A stretch of DNA of 64,000 nucleotides from a virus. The first letter of the stretch is position 1. The number at the start of each line of letters is the position of its first letter. The notes beneath the pieces were generated by a model, which made no database searches, was not told where the DNA came from, and was given only the letters and a program-made list of their open reading frames with translations. The DNA is taken from IMG/VR virus record IMGVR_UViG_3300028840_004314, positions 1 through 64,000 of that record. One strand, 5' to 3'. The position numbers were made by a program, and so were the translations under genes. Positions 5,874 to 59,031 of this stretch are shown here, in pieces.

Positions 5874-5888
5874 TTGGGAGCTTTAATC

Positions 5889-6518
5889 ATGTCGGATTTT
5901 AAAGATGCCGTTGAATTCATGACAGATGAAATTGAGAATCAGGCCAAACTCCTGGAGGACTCCAAGTTGAATGAGTCCGAGGACAAACCCAAGGACAAGG
6001 AAGTGGACGAGAAGAAGAAGGCTCCCAAGTGCAAGAAGTGTGGTGCCACCCACTGGCCGTTCCAGAAATGTGGGGCCAAGAAGAAGGGCAAGGACGACAA
6101 GAAGGAAGAGAAGCCCAAGAAGAAGTCCAAGAAGGACATGGAAGAGCGTCGGGCCGCCTGGAAGAAACGTCTGGCCGAGCGTCGTCGCAGGATCAAGGAG
6201 GAGGCCATGGACTCCGAGGACGACTATGTCGAGCCCACGGATGAAAAGAAGGAATGTGACGAGGAGAAACTTCCCTGTGGGTGTATGGGAAAGTGCACCT
6301 GCGAAGAGAAAAAGGAGTGTGACGAGAGCAAGGTCAACGAGGAAGCCGACTCCAAGGAGAAGCAACGCAACGAGAAGCTTCTGAAGGGCGAGATCGTTTA
6401 TGAGGAGTTCGTCAAGGGCTGCTTAGGTGGCCTGGCGGAAGTCTCCATCGTTGAAGGGGCCCTCGTACTGAAGAACGACCATGGAAAGGAAGTGAAGTTC
6501 GATCTTCCAAAGGAGTAG
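5889..6518 (+). CDS. Highly charged Lys/Glu-rich protein with Cys motifs (prohead-core-like)
   Basis: A 209-residue protein from ATG 5889, preceded by GGGAG. More than half of residues 20-165 are Lys, Glu, Asp or Arg. It contains a zinc-binding-like CKKCGATHWPFQKC (about residues 52-65) and a second Cys cluster CGCMGKCTC (about 137-145). The last 40 residues look folded (GEIVYEEFVKGCLGGLAEV). T4 prohead core proteins are also small and highly charged, and several LxE or NE sites (KLLED, LNESE, VNEEA) would suit processing. Function is not established. Confidence 0.6.
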   Translation: MSDFKDAVEFMTDEIENQAKLLEDSKLNESEDKPKDKEVDEKKKAPKCKKCGATHWPFQKCGAKKKGKDDKKEEKPKKKSKKDMEERRAAWKKRLAERRRRIKEEAMDSEDDYVEPTDEKKECDEEKLPCGCMGKCTCEEKKECDESKVNEEADSKEKQRNEKLLKGEIVYEEFVKGCLGGLAEVSIVEGALVLKNDHGKEVKFDLPKE

Positions 6519-10093: not shown

Positions 10094-10810
10094 ATGGATC
10101 CATACTTGACATTAGTGAAACGTCTGTCTCTTATGGAGGCGGAGGCTTCCTTGGCCATTTCCGAGGCCTTGGACAAACCTGAAGATCTCTACAAGCAGTA
10201 CGTGGAGACAGAAAAGGTGGACGAGCAGGATTTCGAGTACTTCCGAGATCAGGATCCTACTGCCGACAAGTATCTGTCTTGGATGCTGAAACAAGTGGCT
10301 CGGTATGGAGAACAGTATTCTAATCTTGAGATCGCCAATGTAGTGAAGGAATTCGAGCAACAGAAGAAGCGGAAGAAACTGAGTCAGCCGGACATTAACC
10401 AGCATGACATGGAATCCGCCAGACATGACATCGAAAACGCCAAGAAGATGGAGACTCAGCAGGACAAGAAGAAGATCCAGGGGGAAGGGATTGAGATCCT
10501 GGAGGATGACGAGAACAAGCGTGTTGCACTGATCACATCCTACGAGGCCTGTCATAAGTACGGTAAGGGTAGTAAGTGGTGTGTATCTGCAGATCCTCCC
10601 CAGGGCAAAAAGGACTGGGATCAGTACTATCGCCAACGGGAGAGGATTTACATTGTATGGGACAAGAACAAACCGCATGACCCAAAGTACCACAAGTGGT
10701 TGATCGAAGTCCCATTACATGGAGAGCCAACCGCCTGGGACGCCCAGGACAACGATTATACATTCGAAAAGTATTTGGAAATCACTGGGTTCGGTGAGGA
10801 AGACGACTAA
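10094..10810 (+). CDS. Protein with propeptide-like start and a YGKGSKWC domain
   Basis: A 238-residue protein. Residues 1-16 end in LMEA (Glu15), which fits the LxE-A cleavage rule but lacks the HRDLF extension. Residues 25-130 are helical and charged. The C-terminal half carries YGKGSKWCVSA (156-166) followed by DQYYRQRERIYIVWDK. Domains with a GxGTKWC-type motif followed by a phenylalanine/tyrosine and a YIV strand recur in phage proteins; I know no assigned activity. It lies 40 bases ahead of the prohead protease gene. Confidence 0.65.
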   Translation: MDPYLTLVKRLSLMEAEASLAISEALDKPEDLYKQYVETEKVDEQDFEYFRDQDPTADKYLSWMLKQVARYGEQYSNLEIANVVKEFEQQKKRKKLSQPDINQHDMESARHDIENAKKMETQQDKKKIQGEGIEILEDDENKRVALITSYEACHKYGKGSKWCVSADPPQGKKDWDQYYRQRERIYIVWDKNKPHDPKYHKWLIEVPLHGEPTAWDAQDNDYTFEKYLEITGFGEEDD

Positions 10811-10849
10811 ACCAATCAGAACCTTCAAGTTGAATTAGGAGCCATTCTA

Positions 10850-12715
10850 ATGAAAGAGCAGTTATTTGAAACCAGTTTCGTGAAGGCCGACATACTTGAA
10901 TCTGATTCGGCGAAGCTTCCCAAGGGTGTCCTGTGTCAGGGTGTGTGGCCGATTTGCAACATCGGTAAATTGAACCACAACAATCGGATGTACGAGAAGG
11001 ACGTTTACGAGAGGGTGATCGCAAACGCCCTGATTACCGAGAAGATGAAGAACAGGACCCTGTACGGTGAACCCGAGCATCCTCAGGAGACCCAGTCGTC
11101 CTTGGATCGTACTTCTCACATCGTCACCGACATGTGGATCGATGAGAAAACCGACCGCGTGATGAACAGGATTGAAGTCCTGAACACCCCTGGTGGTCAG
11201 CTCATCAATACACTCCTGGAGGCAGGGTGCCTTGTGGGTGTATCCACACGGGCCGAGGGAGAACTGGAGGAGGTTCGCGAAGGTCAGAAAGAACCTTACA
11301 TGAGAGTCGTTCCGGAGTCGTACAATTATGTAACCACGGACTTCACGGCCGATCCCAGCACACTTGGGGCCATTCCTGTCCAAGTGGAGAAGAACGTCGT
11401 GAACCAGGTACAGGAGGCCTTGAAGGAAGGTAAAGTGGACAAACGCTTTGCCTGTTCCTTGCTGGAGTCCTGTAAGAGCAAGGAGGCGAAGACTCTTCTG
11501 GAAACCGTCCAGGAAAAGGAGGAGCCCACGGAGAAGGAGCCTACCAACGAGAAAGATGAATCCCCCTGGCGTAAGCTGAAGGTGGGAGACAAAGTGAAGT
11601 ACGAAGGAAAGGAGTACTCCGTCAAAGGTATTTCATTGGAGGAAAGCACCGTGGATATTTCAACCGATGATGGAACGGTGGTATCCGTCAATGATCCCGA
11701 CTCACTTGTCGTGATCACACCTCCTGATGGATCTGCTGTACCAGTTACTGATGAACCTCCATCATCACCCCCAGTGGACCTGGAGGACGTCGTTCCTCCA
11801 GGTCCCGATATTGACGTGGCCATGGAACCTCCTGGAGTACCCGAGGAGGACCTTGAGGCCGAATTGGAACCCGAAGGCCCCTCCGGACCAGAAGCCCTAG
11901 GCCTGGACCTGGAAGAGCCGGAGGAGGTTCCTGAGCTCGAAGAGGAGCCAGAGGAGGAGGAAGAGGACGAAGAGGAGATGAACGACAGTAAGAAAGCCTC
12001 CTCTGGTGATGACAAATTGGACGAGACGGACGATCAGAAGGCCAAGGAGTCCAAGACTCCCGCGTCGGACCTAACCAAGGAGATATTGTCCAACAAGATC
12101 GACAAGGCCCTGGCTGAAGCCCAACGAGACAAGGCTGTTGAAGTGGCCAGTGAGATTGAGGAACAACGTGTGAAGGAAATCGCCATCCTCACCAAGAAGC
12201 TGAACGCCCTCCGCGAAGAGTTGAAACCGGAGGACAGGAGTGTACTGGACCAGGCCCTGGCGGAGAACGAGGCCCTTCAGAAGAAGATCCAGGAAATGAA
12301 GAAACAGGCGAAGCTTCTTATGGAGAAGATCAGTAAGATCAAGGAGTCCTTCGCCGCTCAGTTGTCGACCGTTAAGGAAGGCGTCGTGAAGATGGAGGAG
12401 GACTTCAAGAAGAAGTTGGAAGAGGAGAAGAAGAGGTTGGCAGAGGAAGCCCACCAGGTATTTATGGAGAGATACGCCAAGTATAAAATCGAAACGTCAG
12501 GTCTGCCCGTGACGGAGAAGGTTCGAACACTTATCGAATCCTGCGACACGCCAGAGGAGGCGGATGAGTTGGTGGAACATGTACGCGATACGCTTCGCGA
12601 GAGTGCACTTCACTCCGAAAAGTTGGAGAGCGTGGATGTGGACGCCATGAAGGAAAACTCCGGCCAAGTTTACATTGATAAGGTGGTCGGGGATTTCATG
12701 GACGCGATGATATAG
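10850..12715 (+). CDS. Prohead protease (S80, gp21-like) fused to a coiled-coil scaffold-like domain
   Basis: A 621-residue protein. Residues 1-190 are a T4 gp21-type (peptidase S80) domain: NHNNRMY at 42-48, GEPEHP with probable catalytic His77, and GVSTRAEG with probable Ser132. It should cut capsid, scaffold and targeted internal proteins after LxE-type sites. Residues 190-260 form a linker with a small beta segment (VGDKVKYEGKEY). Residues 280-390 are acidic and Pro-rich. Residues 410-545 are a long Lys/Glu coiled coil and the end is helical. In T4 protease and scaffold (gp22) are separate; here one chain seems to hold both. LFE-T (5-8) may be a self-cutting site. The next gene is the capsid protein. 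Confidence 0.88.
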   Translation: MKEQLFETSFVKADILESDSAKLPKGVLCQGVWPICNIGKLNHNNRMYEKDVYERVIANALITEKMKNRTLYGEPEHPQETQSSLDRTSHIVTDMWIDEKTDRVMNRIEVLNTPGGQLINTLLEAGCLVGVSTRAEGELEEVREGQKEPYMRVVPESYNYVTTDFTADPSTLGAIPVQVEKNVVNQVQEALKEGKVDKRFACSLLESCKSKEAKTLLETVQEKEEPTEKEPTNEKDESPWRKLKVGDKVKYEGKEYSVKGISLEESTVDISTDDGTVVSVNDPDSLVVITPPDGSAVPVTDEPPSSPPVDLEDVVPPGPDIDVAMEPPGVPEEDLEAELEPEGPSGPEALGLDLEEPEEVPELEEEPEEEEEDEEEMNDSKKASSGDDKLDETDDQKAKESKTPASDLTKEILSNKIDKALAEAQRDKAVEVASEIEEQRVKEIAILTKKLNALREELKPEDRSVLDQALAENEALQKKIQEMKKQAKLLMEKISKIKESFAAQLSTVKEGVVKMEEDFKKKLEEEKKRLAEEAHQVFMERYAKYKIETSGLPVTEKVRTLIESCDTPEEADELVEHVRDTLRESALHSEKLESVDVDAMKENSGQVYIDKVVGDFMDAMI

Positions 12716-12766
12716 TGTCGTCGCCCATAGTTAGCCACAACACTTAGTTTTGTAAAGGAACTAGTG

Positions 12767-14305
12767 ATGAAGAAATCGACCATTCAAAATCTGGCTGAGG
12801 CCAGGTATCAGCAGATCCTGCAGCAGCAGGAGCAGCTCATCGAGGGGTGGAAGCCCATCCTCAACGCGTGCAACAAGTGGAATGAGGAACACCGCGGAGA
12901 GCCCCTGGATAAGCACCAGATGAGAAACATCGCACAGTGCCTGGAGAACGCCTACATCGAGGGCTCCTTCCGCCAGCACAGCAAGATGTTTGAGGCCACC
13001 ACCGAGGACAACATCAGCTTCCTGGGCGTTCAGCTGCCCGTGATTGCTGCCATCGTTCCCTCGCTGGTGCTGAATGACGTCGCCGTTGTGCAGGCCTTGG
13101 ACCGTCGAACCGGTTCCGTGTTCTATCTGGACGTTAAGGCCGGCTCCACCAAGGGTGGTGTCACGAGCGGAGACGTTCTGATGGATGCCAAGACTGGCCA
13201 TGCCAGGACCAAGACCAACCGCCTGTACGCCGCGGCCATCGTCGAGAACGAGACCCTGGTGGACGAGGGTGGTGGAGGTGCCGCCACGTACACTGGTACG
13301 GTGGATTTCGCCCCCGGGTTGATCAACCTGGAGTACGTGACCATCAAGGATTCCAGTGGAACCGTGCTGGGCCGTTCCAACAGCTCAGGTACGATCACCG
13401 ATGCCACCTCCGGCAGTACGGGTGTTACCGGTACCATCACCGCGGCAGGTGTGTACAGCATCGACTTCAGTGCCACGTCTCTCGGCTCTGGAAATGGTGC
13501 CACGATCACCTACCACTACCAGTACGACCTGCCCACCGATGCCTATGGCAACAATGATGGTGTCCCCCAGATGGACATCAACATCAGCTCGAGTGCCATC
13601 GAGTCCATCGACTTCCCCGTGAGGTCGCGGTACAGCATCGGTGCCATGTTCGACCTGAAGAAGGCACATGGCATGGACCTCGAGTCCGAGGTTGTGAAGT
13701 ACCTGGGTGGCGAAGTCCGCTGGACCGTGGATCATTATGGCATCGACCTGATCGAGACCGCGGCCACTGGTGGGTATGATCCCATCGCGGGGGCCAATTT
13801 CAGCCCCGCGACCGCGATCACGGCCTGGAACGCCAACGTCGGCTCCGGTGAGCCCTGGATCTGGAAAAAGGAGGAGTTCATAGATCGTATCTATGAAGGC
13901 TCCAACAACATCCAGTCCAAGACGCTGCGCGCGATCGGTAATTTCATTATCGCCGATCTGAACGTGTGTCGTGTGATCAGCCAGCACAGCAAGTTCAAGG
14001 GCAATGCCAATATCACTGGCAAGAAGGCCCCGACTGGCCCGGTGAACATCGGTACGCTGGACAACCGATTCACCGTCGTTCAGGATCCCTTCCTGACCAC
14101 CAATCGTTACCTGGTGGGCTACAAGGGCGATCACTTCTTGAACGCGGGCATGATTTACGCCCCGTACATCCCGCTGTTCGCCAGCCCCACGCTGACGACC
14201 GCGGACCTGATCGCCCAGAAGGGCTTCATGAGCTCGGCTGGGTTCAAGATCACGAACGCCGGTATGTTCACCTACGGCTCCATCAGCGGTACCTACTTTA
14301 GCTAG
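12767..14305 (+). CDS. Major capsid protein (T4 gp23-like)
   Basis: A 512-residue protein from ATG 12767, preceded by AAAGGAAC. The segment from about 70 to 125 matches the gp23 family pattern: a processing site followed by hydrophobic VPSLVLNDVAVVQALDRRTG. By analogy with T4, the mature protein probably begins after MFE (Glu76), at ATTEDN; LAE-A at residues 9-12 is a further possible cut. An inserted beta-rich domain (about 165-255, Gly/Ser/Thr-rich) interrupts the core. Codon use is more GC-rich and uniform than in neighbouring genes, as expected for the most abundant product. It follows the protease gene and ends at a strong terminator. Confidence 0.9.
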   Translation: MKKSTIQNLAEARYQQILQQQEQLIEGWKPILNACNKWNEEHRGEPLDKHQMRNIAQCLENAYIEGSFRQHSKMFEATTEDNISFLGVQLPVIAAIVPSLVLNDVAVVQALDRRTGSVFYLDVKAGSTKGGVTSGDVLMDAKTGHARTKTNRLYAAAIVENETLVDEGGGGAATYTGTVDFAPGLINLEYVTIKDSSGTVLGRSNSSGTITDATSGSTGVTGTITAAGVYSIDFSATSLGSGNGATITYHYQYDLPTDAYGNNDGVPQMDINISSSAIESIDFPVRSRYSIGAMFDLKKAHGMDLESEVVKYLGGEVRWTVDHYGIDLIETAATGGYDPIAGANFSPATAITAWNANVGSGEPWIWKKEEFIDRIYEGSNNIQSKTLRAIGNFIIADLNVCRVISQHSKFKGNANITGKKAPTGPVNIGTLDNRFTVVQDPFLTTNRYLVGYKGDHFLNAGMIYAPYIPLFASPTLTTADLIAQKGFMSSAGFKITNAGMFTYGSISGTYFS

Positions 14306-47546: not shown

Positions 47547-48293
47547 ATGGGATATGGGTTAACACGCAATAAGAAGAAGTTGATCGTCAGAAGAACTAAG
47601 GTACGTCCGGCCCTGGACGCCCACCATATTGAGGAGGTGTTGTCCAGTGGTTGTTGGTCAGGTGAGAGATGTTTTTTACTGGGTGGTGGTCCCTCGTTAG
47701 TTAACTTCGATTTCTCCAAATTGGATGGCGAACTTACTATTGGAGTTAACAAAACTTTCAACGATTACTACTGTACAGTTAATTACTCCATGGACATAGG
47801 ATTCTATGATTACATTACGAATCCTTCCCCACACCCACCTCACAAGGCTCTGTGTAAAAGGTGGGAGGAGTATCCTGGTATAAAAGCCATCCTAGTACCG
47901 GATAGGCCTTTTCGATTCAAAGACAACTCCTATGTTGTGCCGAAGGTAGCCAAGGAGTGTATCAATCTGGAGGTTATGGATGGGATCTTTCCAGGAAACA
48001 ATAGTGGATTTGGGGCCCTAATGTTGGCTTTACAGTTTGGAGCCAACCCAATTTACTTACTAGGCTATGATTTCAAAACGACAAAAACAAAAACGCACTA
48101 TCATGAAGGTTACGAACACTACCGTAAGCAGGACACGGACAGTTTACAGCCAGTTTTGGACAAGTTTCGTCGTCAATTCGAAAGGTTGGAGCCGACGTTC
48201 CGCTCATTAGATGTCTCAATCATCAACCTGAATCGTGAAAGTGCTCTAGAATGCTTCCCAAAAGGCCGGATAGAAAATCTGTTAAAAGGGTGA
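47547..48293 (+). CDS. Sialyltransferase/DUF115-like protein 1
   Basis: A 248-residue protein. CFLLGGGPSLVNFDFSKL (GGGPSL at 46-51) and SGFGALMLALQFGANPIYLLGYDF match the two conserved blocks of GT42 sialyltransferases and of the DUF115/Maf family, which transfer nonulosonic acids from a CMP-sugar. A THYHEGYEHY segment follows the second block. With NeuA- and NeuB-like enzymes nearby, a nonulosonic acid transferase is a good guess. Start ATG 47547 follows AGAAAGGTGATGG. Confidence 0.6.
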   Translation: MGYGLTRNKKKLIVRRTKVRPALDAHHIEEVLSSGCWSGERCFLLGGGPSLVNFDFSKLDGELTIGVNKTFNDYYCTVNYSMDIGFYDYITNPSPHPPHKALCKRWEEYPGIKAILVPDRPFRFKDNSYVVPKVAKECINLEVMDGIFPGNNSGFGALMLALQFGANPIYLLGYDFKTTKTKTHYHEGYEHYRKQDTDSLQPVLDKFRRQFERLEPTFRSLDVSIINLNRESALECFPKGRIENLLKG

Positions 48294-49123
48294 AAGTTGT
48301 GGGGTATGGAAAATTACGTACGAGGAAGTCCACCCAATTCAACACTAAGCACGTATCACCTAAACCGGCCTTAAACATTTCTACGAAACAACGAAGTAGG
48401 GTTCCAAAAATCCCTACTGCCATACCCACAGCTACTCCATCCCCGAGCAAGAAACAACTATTCATTGTAGGTGGCGGATCCAGTCTGGCCAATTTCGAAT
48501 TTAGTCGCCTGATGGGGCGGGATGTGATGTGTGTCAATACAGCCATATTCAGTGTTCCCTTCGCCAAATACTTTGTAACGAAGGATTACACCTGGTTAGT
48601 GAAGAAGGGTGTAGTAAAAAGCAACACACAGTATGGTAATAGGGAAAGGTTTCTGAATCACAAAGCCATAAAGGTGTTCATGGCTTGTTTAGGAGAGACG
48701 TTGGTGTGTACTCCTGAGGGGTACATTGATACCAAATTCAGTTTGAGATACGACCTTACTATGTTTCATACCATTTTGGACTGTATGAAGAAGGGAGGAA
48801 TCGGTCTTACGAAGAAGGACGCCAGGTACGCGGGCGATAGTGGATACAGTGCACTACAATTGGCAGTCATATTGAAGTATGATCAGATCTTTCTACTTGG
48901 GTACGATATGACTACCACCAACAAAACACATTATCATCGAGGGTATGGAGATGGGGTGAAAGAATTTCAGACCCGACTTGATAGATATTTGGTACACTAC
49001 AGCAGGGCGATGGATGATATTAAGGAGAAGACAGAGATAGAGGTATTTAGCTGTTCCCCTATCAGTCGATTGAATGAATTTGTACCGTTCAGGGACATCC
49101 AGGAGGTTTTATGCGCTCGTTAA
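48251..49123 (+). CDS. Sialyltransferase/DUF115-like protein 2
   Basis: A 290-residue paralogue of the preceding protein. Residues 1-68 are a basic, Thr/Pro-rich extension. The fold begins with LFIVGGGSSLANFEFSRL (74-79 GGGSSL), and the second block reads SGYSALQLAVILKYDQIFLLGYDM followed by THYHRGYGDG. ATG 48251 lies inside the previous gene; translation from there has no clear ribosome site, and a later start is possible. Substrate and acceptor unknown. Confidence 0.6.
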   Translation: MLPKRPDRKSVKRVKVVGYGKLRTRKSTQFNTKHVSPKPALNISTKQRSRVPKIPTAIPTATPSPSKKQLFIVGGGSSLANFEFSRLMGRDVMCVNTAIFSVPFAKYFVTKDYTWLVKKGVVKSNTQYGNRERFLNHKAIKVFMACLGETLVCTPEGYIDTKFSLRYDLTMFHTILDCMKKGGIGLTKKDARYAGDSGYSALQLAVILKYDQIFLLGYDMTTTNKTHYHRGYGDGVKEFQTRLDRYLVHYSRAMDDIKEKTEIEVFSCSPISRLNEFVPFRDIQEVLCAR

Positions 49124-49806
49124 CAATAGTGATAGCCACAAGACATCGACAGGAAAAGTTGGAGAAAACACTCAACTCCATTCCAATACATGATTGGATT
49201 GACTTGATCATAGTGTGTGATGGCGATGTAGAGACATACCAATGGTTGAACGGCAATAAGGATCGGTACAACCCAATGTATACTTTGCTACTTCCAAAGC
49301 ACGTGGGATCTGTGGCCGCCCGAAATAGGGTAACTCCTAGTATCCAGGATGGATTTCTGTGGGCCACGGATGACATCATCTTCAAGGAGGGATCTATCGA
49401 GAGCGCCTTTAAAACATTCAACAAGTATTTTCCGGATGATGATGGAGTAGTAGGGTTTGTACAAGAACCCGGTGACTTCCATCCTACTGGTGTAGGACTG
49501 ATGGGACTGAGATTTCTGATGAGATACCCAGGGATGAAGCCTTTTTATCCCGGGTTTTACCATTTCGCCTGTCAGGAGATCCTATACCTGGCAGATGGAC
49601 GGTTTGAACAGGATCCCAACGCTGTTGTGATACATAAACATCCTGATGCACACCCAGAGGAAAAGGACATCACACACGTGGAAGCCAGAAGGTATAAAGC
49701 CCAGGACATGGCGTTGATAGCGGATCGAAAAAACCAGAACTTAGTATGGGGCCGTGACGATGAGGATCCACCAAGCGGACATATCGAAGAGCCTCCGTCA
49801 GTTTGA
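49111..49806 (+). CDS. Glycosyltransferase, GT-A fold (GT2-like)
   Basis: A 231-residue protein. LTIVIATRHRQEKLEKTLNSI and LIIVCDGDVETYQWL match the nucleotide-binding start of GT-A transferases; FLWATDDIIF takes the place of the DxD metal site. The C-terminal part has FACQEILYLAD and a His-rich segment. It overlaps both neighbours, within a run of at least five transferase genes. Sugar donor is not predictable. Confidence 0.7.
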   Translation: MRSLTIVIATRHRQEKLEKTLNSIPIHDWIDLIIVCDGDVETYQWLNGNKDRYNPMYTLLLPKHVGSVAARNRVTPSIQDGFLWATDDIIFKEGSIESAFKTFNKYFPDDDGVVGFVQEPGDFHPTGVGLMGLRFLMRYPGMKPFYPGFYHFACQEILYLADGRFEQDPNAVVIHKHPDAHPEEKDITHVEARRYKAQDMALIADRKNQNLVWGRDDEDPPSGHIEEPPSV

Positions 49807-50575
49807 ACCGGCCCTTCGCAAAAAGTTTCAACTGGAGAAGTACATTCGTATCACCCAGCCAGCCATTTTCTATGGGTGTCTGTCAGCTCACACTGCCAGG
49901 AAAATCATCAACCATAAAACAACGGCCGTGGTTTGCTGGCGTGGTACTGATGCCCAAAACTTGGCTAAGGCCCGACAAGGACTCCTGAAGGATCGTAAAC
50001 TGGCTGAAGTGTTAGTACGAATGGTGGATTGTGACCATATAAAACATGTAGCCATTTCGGAGTTCATCGAGAAGGATTTACAAATAGCAGGAGTCCCTTA
50101 CAAGAGTGTTCCTGTGACGACGTTGGATCCAAACAAATGTAGACCTCTTCCTCGTGGGGACTGCCTGTATAGTTATGGACATCGCAGGCGTCCCCATATT
50201 TACAACGCCGCTTTAGTAGAAGCCGTGTTCCAAGAATTTCCTTCGGAGTATTGTTTGTATGGGGAGTTAGGAAGTAAAAACACCAGAATGCATCAAGACA
50301 TGTTTAAGGTGTACATTCAGGTGGCGGTGGGTCTCCGTCTTACACAACATGATGGACTTCCAAATACTGTACTAGAATTAGGTTTGATGGGTAGACCTTG
50401 TATCTACAATGGAAAACTACCCAACGCCATTCCTTGGCGGAACAAGAAACATATCATACAGATCTGCCGACAACAACAGCAACGACGAGGAGAAATAGAT
50501 GCGGACATTGCGGAAGCTGTCCGAGAATACATAACTATCAAGGACGATTGGCTAAGGACGGAGTTTTACGAATGA
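49760..50575 (+). CDS. Glycosyltransferase, GT-B-like
   Basis: A 271-residue protein from ATG 49760. There is a central LYGELGSKNTRMHQDMFKVYIQVAVGLRLTQHDGLPNTVLELGLMGRP segment; the DGLPNTVLELGLMG block matches the donor-binding E-containing motif of GT4-type enzymes. The N-terminal half is shorter than usual, so this may be a minimal GT-B enzyme. ATGA overlap with the next gene. Confidence 0.6.
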   Translation: MRIHQADISKSLRQFEPALRKKFQLEKYIRITQPAIFYGCLSAHTARKIINHKTTAVVCWRGTDAQNLAKARQGLLKDRKLAEVLVRMVDCDHIKHVAISEFIEKDLQIAGVPYKSVPVTTLDPNKCRPLPRGDCLYSYGHRRRPHIYNAALVEAVFQEFPSEYCLYGELGSKNTRMHQDMFKVYIQVAVGLRLTQHDGLPNTVLELGLMGRPCIYNGKLPNAIPWRNKKHIIQICRQQQQRRGEIDADIAEAVREYITIKDDWLRTEFYE

Positions 50576-52056
50576 ATCCGAAAGTATCGGTAATAGTTAC
50601 ATTGTATAACTACAAGGAGTACATCCCTGAGTGTATAAACTCCTTTTTGATTCAGGACTTTCCCGACTCTGAGATGGTTATTGTGGATGATGGATCCACG
50701 GATGATCCGGTTCCAACCCTACTCCCCTATTTGAACAAGAGGGTTAGGTTGTTTCAAATACCACACAGTAACTATGCCTGTGCCAAGAATGTTGGTATTC
50801 AAAAAGCCAGGGCGGACATCCTAGTAATGTTGGACGCCGATGACATGTTAACACAGGATGGAATCTCCACCCGCTATACGAAGATCCAGGAAGGGTACGA
50901 CCTGGTCCACGGACCGTCCATCCGCTTGGAAAGGGGCGGGGCCCGTCGTATTGACCCCATGTGGGATAAATGGGTGGAGACGCGTAGTCCTAAGTGGATA
51001 CATGCCCAGGGTGTAATGCTTAGGAAATGGATCCACCGGGAGATAGGTTTGTATGACAGCTGGTTTTGGGCCAAGGCGGATCGGGAGATGTTTTACAGGA
51101 TCGCCCAGGCCAAATACAAGATTGGAAGTGTGGATCGTCCTGTGTCCTTTTACAGGATACACTCCCGCCAGATGCACAGAAGTAAAAAGAAACAACAAGA
51201 CAAGGACACCTTGAGTCGTAGGATGACAAAAGTGTTGGAGAGAAGGAGGAAAGGGAGTTTCAAAGGATTACAGATTTTGGAGACCGCAATGAAACCAGAA
51301 CCACTCAGTCAGATGTTTCAATATAAGGAAAGTGATATAGCTGTTGTCCTTGGTTCTGGTCAGTCGATCAACAGAATAAGTAAGGCAGAATGGAAGGCCA
51401 TTATACACAAGACAGATACATGGGCCATGAACAATTGGGTGTATCATCCTACCGTAGTTCCAAAGTTCTACCATGTGGAAGCCAAATGGTACAACTACAA
51501 TCTACTACGAGAAAGGTTGGAGGAGAAGAGATCCCAGTATCACAATACCAAGTTCCTGTTTGAAAAAGGTAAAGGTATTCGCCACCCACAACAGGGAAGT
51601 AAGTGGTTGCACATGGTCGCCGATGGTTTTCCCTACAAATTCGAGTACCCTATGAAGAAAAGGGATCCCAAGAGGACCCATCCAGTCTATTCGGCAGATT
51701 ACACAATGGATGGTGTGTACCTTACTAAAAGCTATGACATGTCCATGACATGTTTGTTAGAGTTGTTGTACAAGTTTGGGTACAAGTGGGTGGTGCTGTA
51801 CGGGGTGGATCTTACTAACAGTTACTACTTCTGGTCGGGACATGAAGCCAAGTATGGGCAGGTACATCACCAAACAAACAAGGCACACGAAGGGAAGGAT
51901 CCAAAGCTACCACACAACACAGCCCTTATTAGTGATTTCATTGTGGATTTCCATGAGAGGAGATTCAAACCCAGTAACAGGGAAATACTAGTAGGTCACA
52001 CAAAGACAGCCTTGTGGCCAAGATTGGATTGTTCAACTGTAAGGGAATTGCTATGA
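50572..52056 (+). CDS. Fusion of GT2 glycosyltransferase and sialyltransferase/DUF115-like domain
   Basis: A 494-residue protein from ATG 50572. Residues 1-225 are a GT2 domain: VSVIVTLYNYKEYIPECINS, VIVDDGSTDDP (37-46) and MLDADDM with DAD at 88-90. Residues 255-494 are a second domain beginning DIAVVLGSGQSINRISKAEW, the GxGxS start of the sialyltransferase/DUF115 fold seen in the 47547 and 48251 proteins, later with VVLYGVDLTNSYYF. One chain may add two successive sugars. It overlaps the genes on both sides (ATGA). Confidence 0.68.
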   Translation: MNPKVSVIVTLYNYKEYIPECINSFLIQDFPDSEMVIVDDGSTDDPVPTLLPYLNKRVRLFQIPHSNYACAKNVGIQKARADILVMLDADDMLTQDGISTRYTKIQEGYDLVHGPSIRLERGGARRIDPMWDKWVETRSPKWIHAQGVMLRKWIHREIGLYDSWFWAKADREMFYRIAQAKYKIGSVDRPVSFYRIHSRQMHRSKKKQQDKDTLSRRMTKVLERRRKGSFKGLQILETAMKPEPLSQMFQYKESDIAVVLGSGQSINRISKAEWKAIIHKTDTWAMNNWVYHPTVVPKFYHVEAKWYNYNLLRERLEEKRSQYHNTKFLFEKGKGIRHPQQGSKWLHMVADGFPYKFEYPMKKRDPKRTHPVYSADYTMDGVYLTKSYDMSMTCLLELLYKFGYKWVVLYGVDLTNSYYFWSGHEAKYGQVHHQTNKAHEGKDPKLPHNTALISDFIVDFHERRFKPSNREILVGHTKTALWPRLDCSTVRELL

Positions 52057-53021
52057 AAGTGTTCGTACCTGCCCTACAGAAGGCCCCTGGAGGAGGGAAA
52101 AGTGCCTTCTATCATCGTCTCGCCAAGGAGATGAGGAAACAGGGAGTGGATGTAATCGCCGATCCGGAGGAGATCTGTGACATCAGTCTTAACAATGTGA
52201 TAGCCTCTCATGGACCCAGTCGCAAGAAGGTGGTACGTATAGATGGAATATGGCATGATACTGCAAAGCCCTGGAAAGCCAGGAACGCGGCCATCTCCAA
52301 GAGCCTTCACGAATCCGATGGAGTAGTGTATCAGTCGGAATTCTCCGCGAAGATGGGGGATGTATTTCTTGGAAAATACAAGGGACCTCGGGCTGTAATA
52401 CACAATGGAATGGATAGCCGGGAGTTCGCCTCCGTAAAACCTGACAAGTCCATTCTTACTGGCCGTTTTAACTTTTTGGCTGTGTCCAAATGGAGGCCAC
52501 ACAAAAGACTACATGAGATTGTAGATTCCTTTTTGTTAGCTGGAATCAAGGACAGTCTATTGGTGATAGCCGGAGATTTATCCAGGGCGGGTCTAAGACC
52601 ACAGGCCATGCAAAACATCCGATCCCATCCACGTATAAAGTACGTCGGCGTTTTACCACAAGCCAGATTGGCGTCTCTTTGGAAGGGGGCCACGGCTTCC
52701 ATTCACCTCTGTTGGTCGGATTCCTGCCCTAACAGTGTAGTGGAAGCCATCGTACACGGAGTTCCTGTCATCTGTACAAACACGGGAGGTACTCCTGAAT
52801 TGGTAAGGCCTTCTGGAGGTAAGATCGTTTACTTGGATCATGATTATCCCATGGTGGCCTGTGACCTTTACCATCCTCCTCCCATAAACAAGAGGGCACT
52901 GGCGACCGCCATGCAGGAGGTTACTAAGGTTAGTCGTATCATATCCTGTGACCACGTGCATATCAAAAACATTGCAAAGCAATACATTTCCTTTCTGGAG
53001 GAAGTACTGTGCAAGAGTTAA
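52053..53021 (+). CDS. Glycosyltransferase family 4-like
   Basis: A 322-residue GT-B enzyme from ATG 52053 (ATGA overlap). PGGGKSAFYHRLAKEMRKQGVDV at the N-terminus, FNFLAVSKWRPHKRLHEIVDSFLLA in the middle and the C-terminal SDSCPNSVVEAIVHGVPVICTNTGGTPELV are diagnostic of GT4. Retaining transfer of a hexose or similar sugar is expected. Part of the surface-glycan cluster. Confidence 0.82.
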   Translation: MKVFVPALQKAPGGGKSAFYHRLAKEMRKQGVDVIADPEEICDISLNNVIASHGPSRKKVVRIDGIWHDTAKPWKARNAAISKSLHESDGVVYQSEFSAKMGDVFLGKYKGPRAVIHNGMDSREFASVKPDKSILTGRFNFLAVSKWRPHKRLHEIVDSFLLAGIKDSLLVIAGDLSRAGLRPQAMQNIRSHPRIKYVGVLPQARLASLWKGATASIHLCWSDSCPNSVVEAIVHGVPVICTNTGGTPELVRPSGGKIVYLDHDYPMVACDLYHPPPINKRALATAMQEVTKVSRIISCDHVHIKNIAKQYISFLEEVLCKS

Positions 53022-53785
53022 TCTCCATTGTATCTACCCTCTACAACTATGAGCGGTATCTTCGAGATCTAATCGACTCCTGTAAAGCCCAAACGTGGGA
53101 TAATTGGGAACTAATCATTGTGGATGATGGTTCTACCGATAACCCTCTTCCTACCATAACAGAGTGTGCAGATGGTTGGAAGGGTGGTACAATTAGATAC
53201 ATTCCCTTGTCGCGGAATTTTGGATACAGTTACGCCAAGAACATTGGTATAGATGAATCCAGGGGAGAATACATTGTCATGATCGATGCGGATGACATGT
53301 TGATTCCGGATTCACTTAAACACAGGTATGAAGTACTACAAAATACCGACAAGTTGTGGGTCCATGGAAACGTGTTACAGAGAACGGAGGATGGAAAATA
53401 CCACGTTAGTGATATGAATAAACGCACACTGCTCAGGAGAGAACTACTGAGGCAGGGAAAGGATTTGAATACATATTACCATCATCGATTGATACACGCC
53501 CAGGGTGTAATGGTACGAAGGGAATTTCATCGTCGCCTCGGTTTGTATGATGCCAGCCTCCGATTTTCTTCCGATAACGAAATGTTCCGTAGAGCCATTC
53601 GTTTCGGGATTCTTCCGGAGTACACAGGAAGGGTGGTGGCCGTTTACAGGTGTCATACTCACAGGATGAGTAAATCACCTGACAAGAAGAAACAAATCAA
53701 ACAAGTCAAGCAATACATTTTGGATGTAGTTGAAAAGCGTTTTAAGGAAGGTATCAACGAAACCAATACTTGGGTTTTACAATGA
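53009..53785 (+). CDS. GT2 glycosyltransferase
   Basis: A 258-residue protein with GTG start at 53009 (GAGGAA upstream). LISIVSTLYNYERYLRDLIDSC, LIIVDDGSTDNP (DD at 39-40) and MIDADDM (DADD 93-96) are the family hallmarks; GRVVAVYRCHTHRMS near the end is also typical. It resembles the GT2 half of the 50572 fusion, so one may derive from the other. Overlaps the NeuA-like gene by four bases. Confidence 0.82.
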   Translation: MQELISIVSTLYNYERYLRDLIDSCKAQTWDNWELIIVDDGSTDNPLPTITECADGWKGGTIRYIPLSRNFGYSYAKNIGIDESRGEYIVMIDADDMLIPDSLKHRYEVLQNTDKLWVHGNVLQRTEDGKYHVSDMNKRTLLRRELLRQGKDLNTYYHHRLIHAQGVMVRREFHRRLGLYDASLRFSSDNEMFRRAIRFGILPEYTGRVVAVYRCHTHRMSKSPDKKKQIKQVKQYILDVVEKRFKEGINETNTWVLQ

Positions 53786-54450
53786 ACCAGAGAATAGTTA
53801 CATTGATTCCTGCTCGCGGTGGAAGCCAGGGAGTCCGTCGAAAGAATGTTGCCATGGTGGCCGGTATGCCTTTGGTTGCTTACAATATCACGGCGTCTCT
53901 CCTTTCCAAATCAAAGGAAACTTGGGTATCAACTGACAGTACATACATCAAAGAGGTGGCCCTAAGATACGGGGCTAACGTCCTGGACCGTCCAAAATCC
54001 TTAGGAAAGGCGGATAGTACAACGGAGTCGGTTATTGATCACTTTCTGTCCGAAGTGGAATGTGACACCGTGATATTGATGCAACCCACTTCTCCATTCA
54101 CCCTTCCCGAAGATATTAATAGGGGAATACATATTTTCGTGAAAGGACGGTTTCAATCCGTGTTCAGCTGTGTTGAAACAAACGATATGTTGATTTGGAA
54201 ATTCCGAGGAAGGAAGTTTGGTCCAATCAACTATGACCCCCGCAACCGTGGTAACAGACAAACACGACAAGATACCATTTATTGGGAGAATGGGGCCTTT
54301 TACATTTTTACAAAGAAAATGTTTCTAAGGAAACAGTGTAGATTAGGTGGTAAAATTGGAAGAGTACCGATGCCATTTTGGAGATCCTTTCAAGTGGATG
54401 AACCGGAGGACCTCCAAGGTGTGCGTAAACTAATGGGAGGATGGGAGTAG
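53782..54450 (+). CDS. neuA: CMP-nonulosonic acid synthetase (NeuA/PseF-like)
   Basis: A 222-residue cytidylyltransferase from ATG 53782. TLIPARGGSQGVRRKNV near the start is the CTP-binding motif of acylneuraminate/KDO cytidylyltransferases; VSTDS and MQPTSPFTLPEDI are further conserved blocks, and WENGAFYIF is the usual end segment. It activates a nonulosonic acid (sialic, legionaminic or pseudaminic type) as CMP-sugar. A NeuB-like gene lies 2.8 kb on. Which sugar cannot be told; the symbol denotes the family. Confidence 0.82.
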   Translation: MNQRIVTLIPARGGSQGVRRKNVAMVAGMPLVAYNITASLLSKSKETWVSTDSTYIKEVALRYGANVLDRPKSLGKADSTTESVIDHFLSEVECDTVILMQPTSPFTLPEDINRGIHIFVKGRFQSVFSCVETNDMLIWKFRGRKFGPINYDPRNRGNRQTRQDTIYWENGAFYIFTKKMFLRKQCRLGGKIGRVPMPFWRSFQVDEPEDLQGVRKLMGGWE

Positions 54451-54452
54451 GG

Positions 54453-54704
54453 ATGGACCAGGGATACAATACTTGTATTTTATGTGGTGCCAATACATTC
54501 CAACATGATGAGATTTGTCTTCATTGTTGTCGACATGGATGTAGACACAATGAAATGAAAGATAGGAAAGCCTTGAGTCCTCATTTTATGTTTCCAGAGG
54601 ATACCCCGGAGGCTGAGATGGCGGATAGTGAGGTGGAGGATAGGTGGTACAACTCTCCTCCACCTGGAACCCATTTAGTAAATGGCCGACCAATACTAGA
54701 GTGA
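54453..54704 (+). CDS. Small Cys/His-rich protein
   Basis: An 83-residue protein. CILCG, then CLHCCRHGCRH, gives two zinc-binding clusters in the first 35 residues; the remainder is acidic and Pro-rich. ATG 54453 is three bases past the NeuA stop. Similar small zinc proteins are common in phages without known function. Confidence 0.6.
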   Translation: MDQGYNTCILCGANTFQHDEICLHCCRHGCRHNEMKDRKALSPHFMFPEDTPEAEMADSEVEDRWYNSPPPGTHLVNGRPILE

Positions 54705-54709
54705 TCAAA

Positions 54710-54913
54710 ATGAGTACTAACAATAAAATGTTGTACGTCAAGGGAAAGTTGTTCTACTGTGAATGTGGATGTAATGTATTTCACGAGTGTGTCAAAAGAG
54801 TTCCCGAGGATCCTAACGTAAAAAGATACCTCTGTAACAGTTGTGACGTCGGATATTATGGAGAAGTAGCTGATGAGTCCCCCGAAGGAGACAATCTTGG
54901 AAAAGTTGTATAA
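54710..54913 (+). CDS. Small zinc-ribbon protein
   Basis: A 67-residue protein from ATG 54710. CECGCN and CNSCD about 28 residues apart suggest a zinc ribbon in a small beta domain. Its 3' end overlaps the SDR gene by 41 bases. Function unknown. Confidence 0.55.
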   Translation: MSTNNKMLYVKGKLFYCECGCNVFHECVKRVPEDPNVKRYLCNSCDVGYYGEVADESPEGDNLGKVV

Positions 54914-55688
54914 CGTCAAGGGAAAAACAATCGTTCTTACTGGAGCTTCCGGGTATCTGGCTGTAGAGCTCAGTTTACATCTGTATCACCTTGGTGCCCA
55001 GGTGATAGGTTTGGACAAGGACAAGTCAACCTCTGGTCAATACTACAAATTCTTTCAAGTGGATTTCAATAGTCCGGAGTTTCCGAAGGTGTTGGAACGT
55101 ATCACAAAGGAGGAGGAACATCTGGACGTTCTGATCAATATGGCTTGGGATTTGTCGTACAACACTGGGTTTAACATCCCAGGGGCCGAGAAATATACCT
55201 ACGAGCATTGGTACAGGAACTTCATGTGTATGTACTGGGCTGTTTTGACCACGACATACATAGGAGAGATGATGAAACAGGAGGGTGATGGAAGTATCAT
55301 CAACATTGGTACAATGTACGCCAAGACGTGTCCGGATCCAAACATGTACATAGGTACTAGATTTCGGAATCCACCCGCCTACTCTGCCATGAAGGCGGCT
55401 TTGGCCATGTACACAAAGAGGTGTGCCGTTGATCTTGGTGTATATGGTGTCCGATGTAATGTTGTACATCCTGGAGCCTTTCCCAAGGTAAAATCCAAGG
55501 CGAATGGGAACGCTGTTGATTTAGATCATGATCAGGATTTTCTCAACAGACTAGAACGTAAGTCCCCACTGAATATAACTGGACATCCGGCGGATTTGGT
55601 GGGGTTGATTGTTTTCTTGTGTAGTGATTGTTCCAGTTATCTAACTGGGCAGGAGATTTCCGTGGACGGAGGTTGGGACATATGGTAG
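54873..55688 (+). CDS. Short-chain dehydrogenase/reductase
   Basis: A 271-residue SDR. The nucleotide-binding motif is TGASGYLA (usual TGxxxGxG; the last Gly is Ala). INMAWD takes the NAG position, YSAMK is the catalytic Tyr-Lys pair, and HPGAF plus LTGQEISVDGGW close the fold. SDRs of this kind appear in nonulosonic acid and other sugar pathways, in keeping with NeuA/NeuB nearby. Substrate not determined. ATG 54873 has a weak ribosome site and lies in the preceding gene. Confidence 0.8.
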   Translation: MSPPKETILEKLYNVKGKTIVLTGASGYLAVELSLHLYHLGAQVIGLDKDKSTSGQYYKFFQVDFNSPEFPKVLERITKEEEHLDVLINMAWDLSYNTGFNIPGAEKYTYEHWYRNFMCMYWAVLTTTYIGEMMKQEGDGSIINIGTMYAKTCPDPNMYIGTRFRNPPAYSAMKAALAMYTKRCAVDLGVYGVRCNVVHPGAFPKVKSKANGNAVDLDHDQDFLNRLERKSPLNITGHPADLVGLIVFLCSDCSSYLTGQEISVDGGWDIW

Positions 55689-55704
55689 GGTGGGTGTATG
55701 GGGC

Positions 55705-55732
55705 CCAGGAGGCCCGGATGGCCCTGTCCTGG
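55705..55732 (+). other. Stem-loop ahead of the radical SAM gene
   Basis: CCAGGA (55705-55710) pairs with TCCTGG (55727-55732), with an inner GGCC/GGCC pairing. It lies in the 82-base gap between the SDR and radical SAM genes, with no T-run, so it may affect mRNA stability rather than terminate. Confidence 0.4.
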
Positions 55733-55770
55733 TCCGAGGAGGGATCCTCCAGGTTAAGGAGGTGTTTACC

Positions 55771-56589
55771 ATGTTTGACGACGTGAGACCACTTCATGGT
55801 TTGTGTAATGTTAACGTAGAATTGACGTCCAGATGCAACAAAAACTGTTGGATGTGTGGACGTCGGGAACGTGAACGTTTGCACGGGCCCCAAGAAGAAG
55901 GAGACATGACTCAGGAGACCGTTTACAAGATCGCAAATGAACTTCCTCCGGGCCTGTTGGTACAACTACACAACAATGGAGAACCGCTGGTGTATCCACA
56001 TTTTGGGCACGCCGCGGCCTGTTTCAATGTGAGACACTTTACAAACATTGTTACAAACGGGAAGTTGTTGTTTCGAAAACACGATGAAATCATAGGAAAA
56101 CTGGATACTTTATCCGTGTCTGTATTTGAGAATGATCCGGAGGCGGACGCACAATACGCCATTTTGGAGGGGTTTCTTGACAAGAAGGGGGATCAGCGGC
56201 CGTTTGTTACAGCCAGATTGATAGGTAACATCCCTCCAGAACAGGAGAAATGGTATACTGATTTGGGTTTGGAGATTGTACGACGTACTCTTCACGACCC
56301 AAGAGGTAGTGTAAACTACCGCAAGGAACCCACCAAACCAGAGGCAGGTTTTTGTTGGGACATGTTTACGCGGTTGGCGATCAATTACAAGGGGGATGTT
56401 TCGTGTTGTGTACGTTATGATCCCGAGGGGGATCTCGTTCTGGGTAATATAAACGAAACATCCCTTTATGATATGTGGTACGGAGAAAAACGACAGTACA
56501 TGTTAGCCAAGCACATCCAGGGGCGACGATGTGATTTGGATTATTGTGGGAAGAAATGTCACTATTGGGGAGTGCCTACCGGTGTATAG
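55771..56589 (+). CDS. Radical SAM protein with SPASM-like tail
   Basis: A 272-residue protein from ATG 55771, preceded by a near-perfect AAGGAGGTG. CNKNCWMC at 22-29 is the CxxxCxxC cluster that binds the SAM-cleaving 4Fe-4S centre. LHNNGEPLVYPHF matches the GGEP region. The C-terminal third has conserved Cys in FCWDMF, SCCVRYD, and C(D)LDYCGKKC, a SPASM-type auxiliary site. It is likely a sugar- or peptide-modifying enzyme. In this cluster a role in nonulosonic acid or glycan tailoring is inferred. Confidence 0.78.
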   Translation: MFDDVRPLHGLCNVNVELTSRCNKNCWMCGRRERERLHGPQEEGDMTQETVYKIANELPPGLLVQLHNNGEPLVYPHFGHAAACFNVRHFTNIVTNGKLLFRKHDEIIGKLDTLSVSVFENDPEADAQYAILEGFLDKKGDQRPFVTARLIGNIPPEQEKWYTDLGLEIVRRTLHDPRGSVNYRKEPTKPEAGFCWDMFTRLAINYKGDVSCCVRYDPEGDLVLGNINETSLYDMWYGEKRQYMLAKHIQGRRCDLDYCGKKCHYWGVPTGV

Positions 56590-56607
56590 GGAGGGTAGGA
56601 GAATACT

Positions 56608-57429
56608 ATGAGCTGTAAGATTGTTGCTGACATTGGAATCAATCACAATGGTGATGTGGATTTGGCGAAACAGATGATATGTATGGCCAAACAGGCCGGA
56701 TGTGATTACGTCAAATTCCAAAAGAGGACCGTGGGTCTGGTGTACACTCAGGAAGAGTTAGACAAACCGAGGGAGTCCCCCTGGGGAACAACGAATCGAC
56801 ACCAAAAGGAGGGTTTGGAATTCACGGAGGCGGAGTATGTGGACATTGATGCCTTCTGTAACAGTATACAGATACCATGGTTCGCTTCTCCTTGGGATCG
56901 TGTGTCTGTTGAATTCCTAACACAGTTCGAGCCTCCGTACATCAAGGTGGCTTCCGCGATGTTAACAAACATTGAAGTGTTGGAGAAGATTCGGGAAACT
57001 GGAATTCCAGTGATCCTTTCCACTGGAATGTCACTACAACATGAATTGGATCAGGCTCTGGAATATCTAGGAGGTCAGGTGGAGTACATTCTGGCTTGTA
57101 CCTCCACCTATCCTACTGCCACGCATGAGATGAATCTCCGGTTCATTACCACCCTGAAGAAGCAGTATCCACACTGGAAGATTGGTTTTTCCAATCATCA
57201 TCCTGGTGTATTTCACATGGCCTCCACGGTGGTTCTTGGGGCCGAGATGATTGAATTTCATATTACTCCTGGACGGTCCTTTTATGGATCTGATCAGGCC
57301 GCCAGTATTGAGGCTGAAGGCGTTCGTAAGTTGGTGAAGTATGTACGGGATACAGAAATTGCCATGGGACACGGTGATTGGACTGTATTCCCGAATGAAA
57401 TTCCGATTCGTGACAAATTACGAAAATGA
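56608..57429 (+). CDS. neuB: Nonulosonic acid synthase (NeuB-like), lacking the C-terminal antifreeze domain
   Basis: A 273-residue protein of the NeuB/SpsE family, which condenses a hexosamine with phosphoenolpyruvate. Conserved blocks: ADIGINHNGDVDLAKQMI, YVKFQKR, FASPWDRVSVEFL, PYIKVASAML, ILSTGMS, CTSTYPT, IGFSNHHPG and HITPGRSFYGSDQAASIE. Length stops at the end of the TIM barrel; the C-terminal SAF domain that normally lies over the partner's active site is missing. Short versions are known but activity is not certain. Symbol denotes the family. Confidence 0.82.
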   Translation: MSCKIVADIGINHNGDVDLAKQMICMAKQAGCDYVKFQKRTVGLVYTQEELDKPRESPWGTTNRHQKEGLEFTEAEYVDIDAFCNSIQIPWFASPWDRVSVEFLTQFEPPYIKVASAMLTNIEVLEKIRETGIPVILSTGMSLQHELDQALEYLGGQVEYILACTSTYPTATHEMNLRFITTLKKQYPHWKIGFSNHHPGVFHMASTVVLGAEMIEFHITPGRSFYGSDQAASIEAEGVRKLVKYVRDTEIAMGHGDWTVFPNEIPIRDKLRK

Positions 57430-57442
57430 GGAGGAGTTTAGG

Positions 57443-58039
57443 ATGTTACTGATCAACGTAGGTGGTGCGAAGGGATTCAAAAACTTTTCTGACAAGGTTA
57501 GGGATAACTGGAAGGTAATGGATGTAGATCCGAAAAAAGCGGACTACCTCTATGACGTAAACAGCACGGAGCCTATCCCATTGAATTCTGACAGTGTGGA
57601 TGGATACTACTGTTCCATGATACTGGAACATGTGGACCCAGGAATTTTACCGGGTTTATTGAAGGAATTCTATCGTACCCTAAAGCCCAATGGAAGGATT
57701 CGGGTGGTAGTTCCTGACTTTCGGTTGGCTTGTTTCCATTACTTGAACGATCCACGTTGGTTGTGGCGAAAGGATCTTCCGACTGGTGACAAAACCTTCC
57801 CGGAAACGGCCCTAGGGAAGTTAATGCCTTGGTTCTATTCCAGGGATGGAGTAGTAAAGGGTGCCATGCGCCATGGTCACAAAATGTGTTTTGACGCGGA
57901 AACCCTGAAGCAGTTTTTTATGGGGGCAGGTTTTCGGGGTATTGTGCAAAGGGACTATAATACAAAGGATTCCATGTTTGATGGAAAGGATTTCAAGAGA
58001 TACGCGGAGTGGTCCATTTACTTGGAGGCACAAAAATAG
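57443..58039 (+). CDS. SAM-dependent methyltransferase (class I)
   Basis: A 198-residue protein from ATG 57443 with GGAGGAG upstream. LLINVGGAKGFKN and WKVMDVDPKKADYLYDV form the SAM-binding start, SDSVDGYYCSMILEHVDP the motif-II region, and FYRTLKPNGRIRVVVPDFR the next strand: a methyltransferase_11 type. Acts within the glycan island, so O-methylation of a sugar is a reasonable guess. Confidence 0.75.
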   Translation: MLLINVGGAKGFKNFSDKVRDNWKVMDVDPKKADYLYDVNSTEPIPLNSDSVDGYYCSMILEHVDPGILPGLLKEFYRTLKPNGRIRVVVPDFRLACFHYLNDPRWLWRKDLPTGDKTFPETALGKLMPWFYSRDGVVKGAMRHGHKMCFDAETLKQFFMGAGFRGIVQRDYNTKDSMFDGKDFKRYAEWSIYLEAQK

Positions 58040-58053
58040 GTTCTTGATCTGGT

Positions 58054-58070
58054 CTACATGATATATGTAG
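58054..58070 (+). promoter_or_regulatory. Perfect 6-bp inverted repeat in the gap before the Tat-signal gene
   Basis: CTACAT (58054-58059) and ATGTAG (58065-58070) flank GATAT in the 59-base gap between genes 57443 and 58099. It could be an operator or part of a promoter; too short to be sure. Confidence 0.3.
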
Positions 58071-58098
58071 GTGAAAGTATGGGTTTAGGAGTGTACTT

Positions 58099-58476
58099 GT
58101 GGATAGAAGAAACTTCTTAAAAAGGTTAGGCGGTACCATTGGGGCTGCTTTAATAGGCGTTAACCTTTTGGAAAAGGAAACTCCTTGGTCCTCCCCTAGT
58201 TCACTTCGTATCGTAACATTGGATTCTTTAGGTTCCAGTGTTTCTACTTGTGACGTGTGTCCTCTCAAAGCCAAAAACAAATGTATGTGTCTTTGTAGAC
58301 TGGGACGTAAACAAAACCCCGAAAACATTGAAAAGTACGAAAGATGGGTAGTCACACAATACGATTCTACCACTAAAGTAGCCACTGTGTCGGAGACCTT
58401 TCCAAAACATATTGGAAATGGTGTATACGAATTCAACGTACAAACCCTAGAGGAACAAAATGCCAAAAAATCTTGA
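58099..58476 (+). CDS. Putative Tat-exported Cys-rich protein
   Basis: A 125-residue protein with GTG start at 58099 (TAGGAG upstream). DRRNFLKRL followed by GGTIGAALIGVNLL is a twin-arginine signal of the RRxFLK type, implying export in folded form. Five Cys follow in CDVCPLKAKNKCMCLC (about residues 50-65), which could hold a metal or Fe-S centre. The C-terminus overlaps the next gene by 17 bases. Tat substrates are rare in phages; role unknown, perhaps linked to envelope modification. Confidence 0.6.
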   Translation: MDRRNFLKRLGGTIGAALIGVNLLEKETPWSSPSSLRIVTLDSLGSSVSTCDVCPLKAKNKCMCLCRLGRKQNPENIEKYERWVVTQYDSTTKVATVSETFPKHIGNGVYEFNVQTLEEQNAKKS

Positions 58477-59023
58477 AGTTAACGATCGTCACAAAATCAT
58501 CGCCTCCCGTTTAGAGGAGTTAGTTCCACCCAAGTCTTCCAGACGACAACGGAAACTGGTGATCGATGTGGGATGCTACAAAGGCCGGCTGGGTTATCTT
58601 CTTCGAAAGATGAAGTACAAAACCATCGGATTCGACATTAGCGTGAAGTGTGTTGATGAATGTCGGAGATTGGGACTTAATACCTTCATCAAAGACATCA
58701 CAAAACAACCATTGAAGGCCTGGCCCAAGGCGGATGCTGTTGTATGCTCCGAATTGTTAGAGCATCTTACAGAGCAAGGATTTCATGTGGCGGTCCGCAA
58801 CTTGGATTCCATGCTGGATTCGGGTGGAGTACTAATCATCACTGTGCCCGAGAAAGAGGAAGCCATCGAGAAACATTCCTTCCACAAAAGGTATGTAACC
58901 TCCAAAATGATCAAGGAAGCCTTCCCAGAGTATGATTTATTGGAGGAATCCTTGGTTTACAAAAACGAGGGAGCCAGACTCCGTAACAGTGCCAACCTTA
59001 TGCTGGTATTCAAGAAACAGTAG
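58460..59023 (+). CDS. SAM-dependent methyltransferase
   Basis: A 187-residue class I methyltransferase. LVIDVGCYKGRLGYLL is motif I, TIGFDIS the acidic post-I position, AVVCSELLEHL and SMLDSGGVLIITVPE the following blocks. It is probably a sugar O-methyltransferase by context. Starts within the end of the previous gene. Confidence 0.75.
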   Translation: MPKNLEVNDRHKIIASRLEELVPPKSSRRQRKLVIDVGCYKGRLGYLLRKMKYKTIGFDISVKCVDECRRLGLNTFIKDITKQPLKAWPKADAVVCSELLEHLTEQGFHVAVRNLDSMLDSGGVLIITVPEKEEAIEKHSFHKRYVTSKMIKEAFPEYDLLEESLVYKNEGARLRNSANLMLVFKKQ

Positions 59024-59031
59024 GAAGTTAC

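Follow-up and report, generated by a model that had tools for sequence, protein, structure and literature searches.

A prohead protease and a probable internal scaffold encoded as one polypeptide directly ahead of a Gp23-type capsid gene

A single viral gene encodes a T4-type prohead protease and, in the same chain, a long coiled-coil region with the properties expected of an internal scaffold, and this protease-scaffold fusion is well supported by gene order, by relatives and by a structure model. The 64,000-nt window analyzed here comes from a virus record of 84,485 bases, which is itself probably a fragment. The gene starts with an ATG at position 10850, its stop codon ends at position 12715, and its 621-aa product matches PHROG_207, “head maturation protease,” with an E-value of 9.2e-36. 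A previous sequence-only reading had placed protease and scaffold on this one ORF, and both the ORF and the residues His77 and Ser132 were recovered where it had located them. The capsid gene begins 49 nt downstream. Neither the ORF list nor a Pfam scan places any gene between the 10850-12715 ORF and the capsid gene at 12764, in agreement with the earlier statement that this interval holds no scaffold candidate. The placement is therefore T4-like, in that a coiled-coil protein is encoded immediately 5' of a Gp23-type gene (ORF list, Pfam, and model). The features of the locus are:

10836..10841, + strand: Shine-Dalgarno-like TAGGAG (predicted pairing -6.5 kcal/mol, spacing 7-8 nt)
10850..12715, + strand: prohead protease-scaffold fusion gene, 621 aa (ORF, Pfam, PHROG, relatives fused over the full length)
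10850..11359, + strand: S77 protease domain, aa 1-170 (pLDDT mostly >90; Foldseek and profile matches to 5jbl)
11078..11080, + strand: catalytic His77 codon (invariant, 131/131)
11243..11245, + strand: catalytic Ser132 codon (invariant, 131/131)
11339..11341, + strand: catalytic Asp164 codon (invariant, 131/131)
11384..11515, + strand: helices 179-222, end of the protease part (model pLDDT ~90; conserved in the clade)
11459..11467, + strand: LLE206|S, candidate for self-cleavage where the protease and scaffold parts meet (Glu conserved; T4 L/I-x-E motif)
11564..11719, + strand: small SH3/Tudor/KOW-like beta barrel, aa 239-290 (model pLDDT 74-92; Foldseek; KOW in L105)
11717..12058, + strand: disordered Pro/Glu-rich linker, aa 290-403 (pLDDT <50; composition)
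12062..12499, + strand: aa 405-550, long coiled coil that would form the body of the scaffold (pLDDT 77-96, near-continuous helix)
12515..12610, + strand: aa 556-587, C-terminal helical hairpin, putative capsid-binding end (pLDDT ~95; conserved in 8/8 clade members)
12764..14305, + strand: Gp23-type major capsid protein gene (Pfam Gp23, 1.2e-40)
12992-12994, + strand: codon of the predicted capsid protein cleavage MFE|ATTED (site aligned in clade capsid proteins)

The N-terminus of the fusion protein belongs to Peptidase S77, the type of T4 gp21, and not to Peptidase S80. Pfam assigns aa 23-147 to Peptidase_S77 (PF03420) with an E-value of 2.7e-14 and 53.5 bits, against a gathering cut-off of 27, while Peptidase S80 (PF20034) reaches 19.2 bits and stays under its cut-off of 23.4. 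Accordingly, the two catalytic positions of the sequence-only reading hold and its S80 label does not. The modelled protease matches the crystal structure of T4 gp21 (5jbl) in Foldseek with an E-value of 5e-11 and a TM-score to the target of 0.80-0.83, and a profile search found the same structure at 1.3e-33. All three residues of the His-Ser-Asp triad (H77/S132/D164) are unchanged across the 131 aligned sequences.

The remainder of the protein had been described as one acidic, coiled-coil region. In an AlphaFold2 model of the whole chain, built on 57 sequences (mean pLDDT 76.7), the coiled coil is present at aa 405-550; the single block is not, as helices, barrel, disordered linker, and hairpin were modelled too, followed by an end helix at aa 604-620. 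The barrel matches Tudor domains in Foldseek with a probability of ~1 but an E-value of only ~0.1, and at the corresponding position of the relative L105, Pfam scores a KOW motif above its cut-off. Further Pfam hits in the fusion family (CBM_5_12, Bap31, and AAT) were weak and were judged to be chance matches.

Gene order in relatives, proposed earlier as a check, favors fusion. The survey covered 116 distinct related protease genes in collected loci that were gathered by pattern searches, so that its counts do not represent frequencies in nature: 68 proteases measure 200-250 aa, one 287 aa, and 47 are 444-1342 aa long. In all 63 loci that contain both a short protease and a capsid gene, the gap between them is at least 716 nt, enough for a gp22-like gene, whereas 44 of the 47 long proteases adjoin the capsid gene with a gap of at most 132 nt (the exceptions are L079, L093, and L150). 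The fused layout is present in five named phages and about 40 environmental loci and is thus not unusual outside T4. LIS04, vB_SagM-GXN1, IME392, phiXF1, and Colly_1 carry one gene of 435-559 aa directly before the capsid gene; in Acj61, S-ShM2, and Rhizobium phage RHph_I1_18, protease, scaffold, and capsid protein are encoded by separate genes, and the protease of Phosso is likewise short. In a phylogeny built from 64 dereplicated protease domains, the fused/split label changes state three times, versus 21.4 times with shuffled labels, indicating that fusion or fission is rare and old. In two of the three exceptions to the gap pattern, ORFs resembling homing endonucleases were seen to split the major capsid gene, at 8825-9235 of L079 and at 10199-11110 and 11956-12609 of L093.

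The seven nearest relatives are all fused (L105, 694 aa; L107, 533 aa; L079, 846 aa; L109, 795 aa; L110, 1021 aa; L093, 1342 aa; and L108, 872 aa from its likely start) and every one of them retains the protease with its helices as well as the last ~95 aa. The middle of the protein, by comparison, ranges from ~100 aa in L107 up to ~900 aa in L093, and most of its modules show no relationship to one another or to other ORFs, the exceptions being L108/L110 and one weak match of L093. A scan of the genome_contigs set found no relative. The motif ESKxNE occurs in the middle six times in L093 (aa 284-972) and three times in L109 (aa 321-523), where composition shuffles predict ~0 occurrences, and is absent from the protein of the window gene; these repeats are possible polyprotein cleavage sites. 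Similar K[VL]NE motifs were noticed in the window ORFs 5874, 6976, and 9117. The distinctive feature is the hypervariable middle, which holds a KOW-like barrel in the window protein and ESKxNE repeats in L093 and L109. With its inserted domain, this middle raises a testable question, namely that of cargo loading: in this lineage the fusion might represent a head polyprotein whose protease cuts small cargo modules of the middle free in the prohead, the scaffold thereby loading proteins for delivery into the host, a speculative idea to which we attach a low probability.

It is highly probable, in our assessment, that the one polypeptide performs the jobs of both T4 gp21 and gp22, first as scaffold and then as self-cleaving protease, without an internal start. 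In this model, the gp23-type capsid protein would assemble around an internal scaffold formed by the C-terminal coiled coil and hairpin, so that an S77 protease would enter the prohead with each scaffold copy. Completion of the shell would activate the protease, which would then self-cleave at L-x-E sites (LLE206|S as a candidate, possibly LLE218|T), destroy the scaffold, and trim the capsid protein at MFE|ATTED. Scaffold destruction and trimming together would clear the head for DNA. In T4, 576 copies of gp22 stand against ~100 of gp21 (PMC5694885); a fused chain would depart from this protease:scaffold stoichiometry, which counts against a model with the fusion only.

We infer the scaffold role of the C-terminal part from four points: where it lies, its coiled coil, the hairpin conserved near its end, and the lack of a gp22-like gene on the contig. 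The sequence-only reading had named a separate gp22-like scaffold elsewhere, together with another role of the C-terminal region, as what would refute it; no such gene was found when it was sought on all 84 kb. Homology to gp22 was likewise sought and not found: hhalign comparison of the C-terminal part with T4-type gp22 gave 3.3% probability at best (last 110 aa), 60.7% was reached to the LIS04 group only, and iterative HMM searches yielded no connection to gp22. The C-terminal part is therefore not classed as gp22. This result would also fit a targeting or core segment belonging to the protease, like gp67/gp68 or a long propeptide, with the true scaffold encoded elsewhere. Given that the record is probably a fragment and that no portal or terminase gene was identified on its 84 kb, another scaffold gene could lie beyond the contig; E/K-rich ORFs, e.g., 5874-6518, could be core proteins, and L150 has, in addition to its long protease, a separate ORF of 206 aa with coiled-coil-like sequence. 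However, the slot between protease and capsid gene is empty where the protease is long, the 84 kb hold no detectable gp22-like gene, and the long coiled coil and conserved hairpin resemble a scaffold in the model. A mere targeting or core segment is thus improbable.

Under the preferred single-polypeptide model, the protease and scaffold parts are likely separated by self-cleavage at their junction, a prediction that follows from the conserved sites, the specificity of T4 gp21, which cleaves after L/I-x-E (PMC9026906), and the example of SPN3US gp245, which removes its own C-terminus by self-cleavage at Glu203 (PMC5694885). In the junction column, Glu is found in 8/8 clade members, followed by S or T and preceded two positions earlier by a hydrophobic residue. 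LLE218|T is a second possible site of the window protein. A motif as short as L-x-E also arises by chance in a Glu-rich protein, which counts against the model. The clade capsid proteins show an aligned F/L-x-E-type site ahead of an ATTED-like sequence.

Motifs of this kind were also observed elsewhere in the window. A near-identical N-terminal tag, LLEAHRDLF or variants of it, is carried by eight otherwise different proteins (ORF starts 159, 513, 2046, 3128, 4211, 25218, 40804, and 42411), with internal copies in ORF 513 (aa 120) and ORF 6976 (aa 308), and a search of viral contigs for it gave no convincing match. Its sequence would suit cleavage at L-x-E|A, and the tag could serve as a propeptide for targeting to the capsid. 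More generally, [LIVMF]xE[AS] occurs within the first 33 aa of 21 of the 83 predicted window genes, whose starts were called mechanically, versus 6.9% of 33-aa stretches elsewhere; this excess suggests many cleaved head-internal proteins. In the tail region, 38123-38998 matches PHROG_1114, “PmgG-like head morphogenesis” (8e-30). By eye, the translations of a run of ORFs in 47547-60320 resemble glycosyltransferase, sugar-nucleotide, and methyltransferase genes, which is unusual for a phage structural region.

Nested protease/scaffold genes are exemplified by lambda C/Nu3 and herpesvirus UL26/UL26.5. A corresponding arrangement here, in which the full-length protease-scaffold is accompanied by an excess of in-frame scaffold-only protein from an internal start, would settle the protease:scaffold ratio, and T4 gene 21 has an internal start of its own, Met45 (PMC9026906). 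Yet the ATGs between the protease and the coiled coil of the window gene have no Shine-Dalgarno signal beyond what synonymous-codon shuffles give, nor is any of them conserved in relatives: the best-placed one, Met377, shows a pairing of -5.8 kcal/mol (p 0.79 versus shuffles), and of the clade ATGs that precede the coiled coil, only Met221 of L079 has a low p (0.01), at a codon that the others do not share. Some internal GTG/TTG codons are preceded by Shine-Dalgarno-like sequence, but runs of GAG/GAA codons yield such sequence for free. The internal initiation that had been entertained at the outset thus finds no support, and such an excess scaffold-only product is very improbable. A gene of the lambda C/Nu3 type, with a conserved internal start and ribosome-binding site before the scaffold part, was rejected. 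Finally, the fusion gene was read from a single metagenomic contig, and an assembly artefact or misjoined ORFs can practically be dismissed, as the identical layout recurs on independent contigs (L105, L107, L079, L108, L109, L110, and L093) and in the isolates LIS04, IME392, Colly_1, and phiXF1.

Fused genes of this kind are already known from databases and named phages, and some carry the label “prohead core scaffolding protein and protease,” which is also given to short proteases. The literature searched contained neither an experimental study of the S77 fusions of named phages nor a paper treating a T4-type protease-scaffold fusion. For large T4-related phages without a gp22 gene, the protease gene's tail is the place to look. 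The pattern of protease length and gap provides a simple annotation rule that corrects automatic plain-protease labels.

Among known systems, the head proteases phiKZ gp175 and SPN3US gp245 are related Peptidase S80 members whose C-terminus is self-cleaved (PMC5694885); they have no scaffold tail, gp245 is short (263 aa), and the window protein stays under the S80 cut-off. T4 gp21 shares protease family, fold, and triad with the window protein, is likewise encoded near gp23, and has L-x-E-type sites too, one of them near the N-terminus in both (LIE-9 in gp21); in T4, however, a short gp21 and a separate gp22 take two genes instead of one. The PHROG_207 fusions of LIS04 (Listeria, 559 aa), IME392 (Escherichia, 478 aa), Colly_1 (Maribacter, 435 aa), phiXF1 (Xanthomonas, 474 aa), and vB_SagM-GXN1 (Streptococcus, 558 aa) combine S77 with a long tail that is partly coiled coil and, as in the window, immediately precede the capsid gene, but they are only ~20-24% identical to the window protein, and neither a KOW-like barrel nor a Pro/Glu linker comparable to its own is seen in their alignment. 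In P2 gpO, an N-terminal serine protease (residues 1-141) and a C-terminal scaffold (195-284) share one chain, which demonstrates that a protease-scaffold fusion of the kind proposed here can work (PMC7552001). P2 gpO is half the size, and neither a beta barrel nor a long variable middle was found reported for it. It cleaves itself and the capsid protein (PMC7552001), for which the fusion protein has predicted sites, and by analogy P2 gpO would be its closest counterpart in working.
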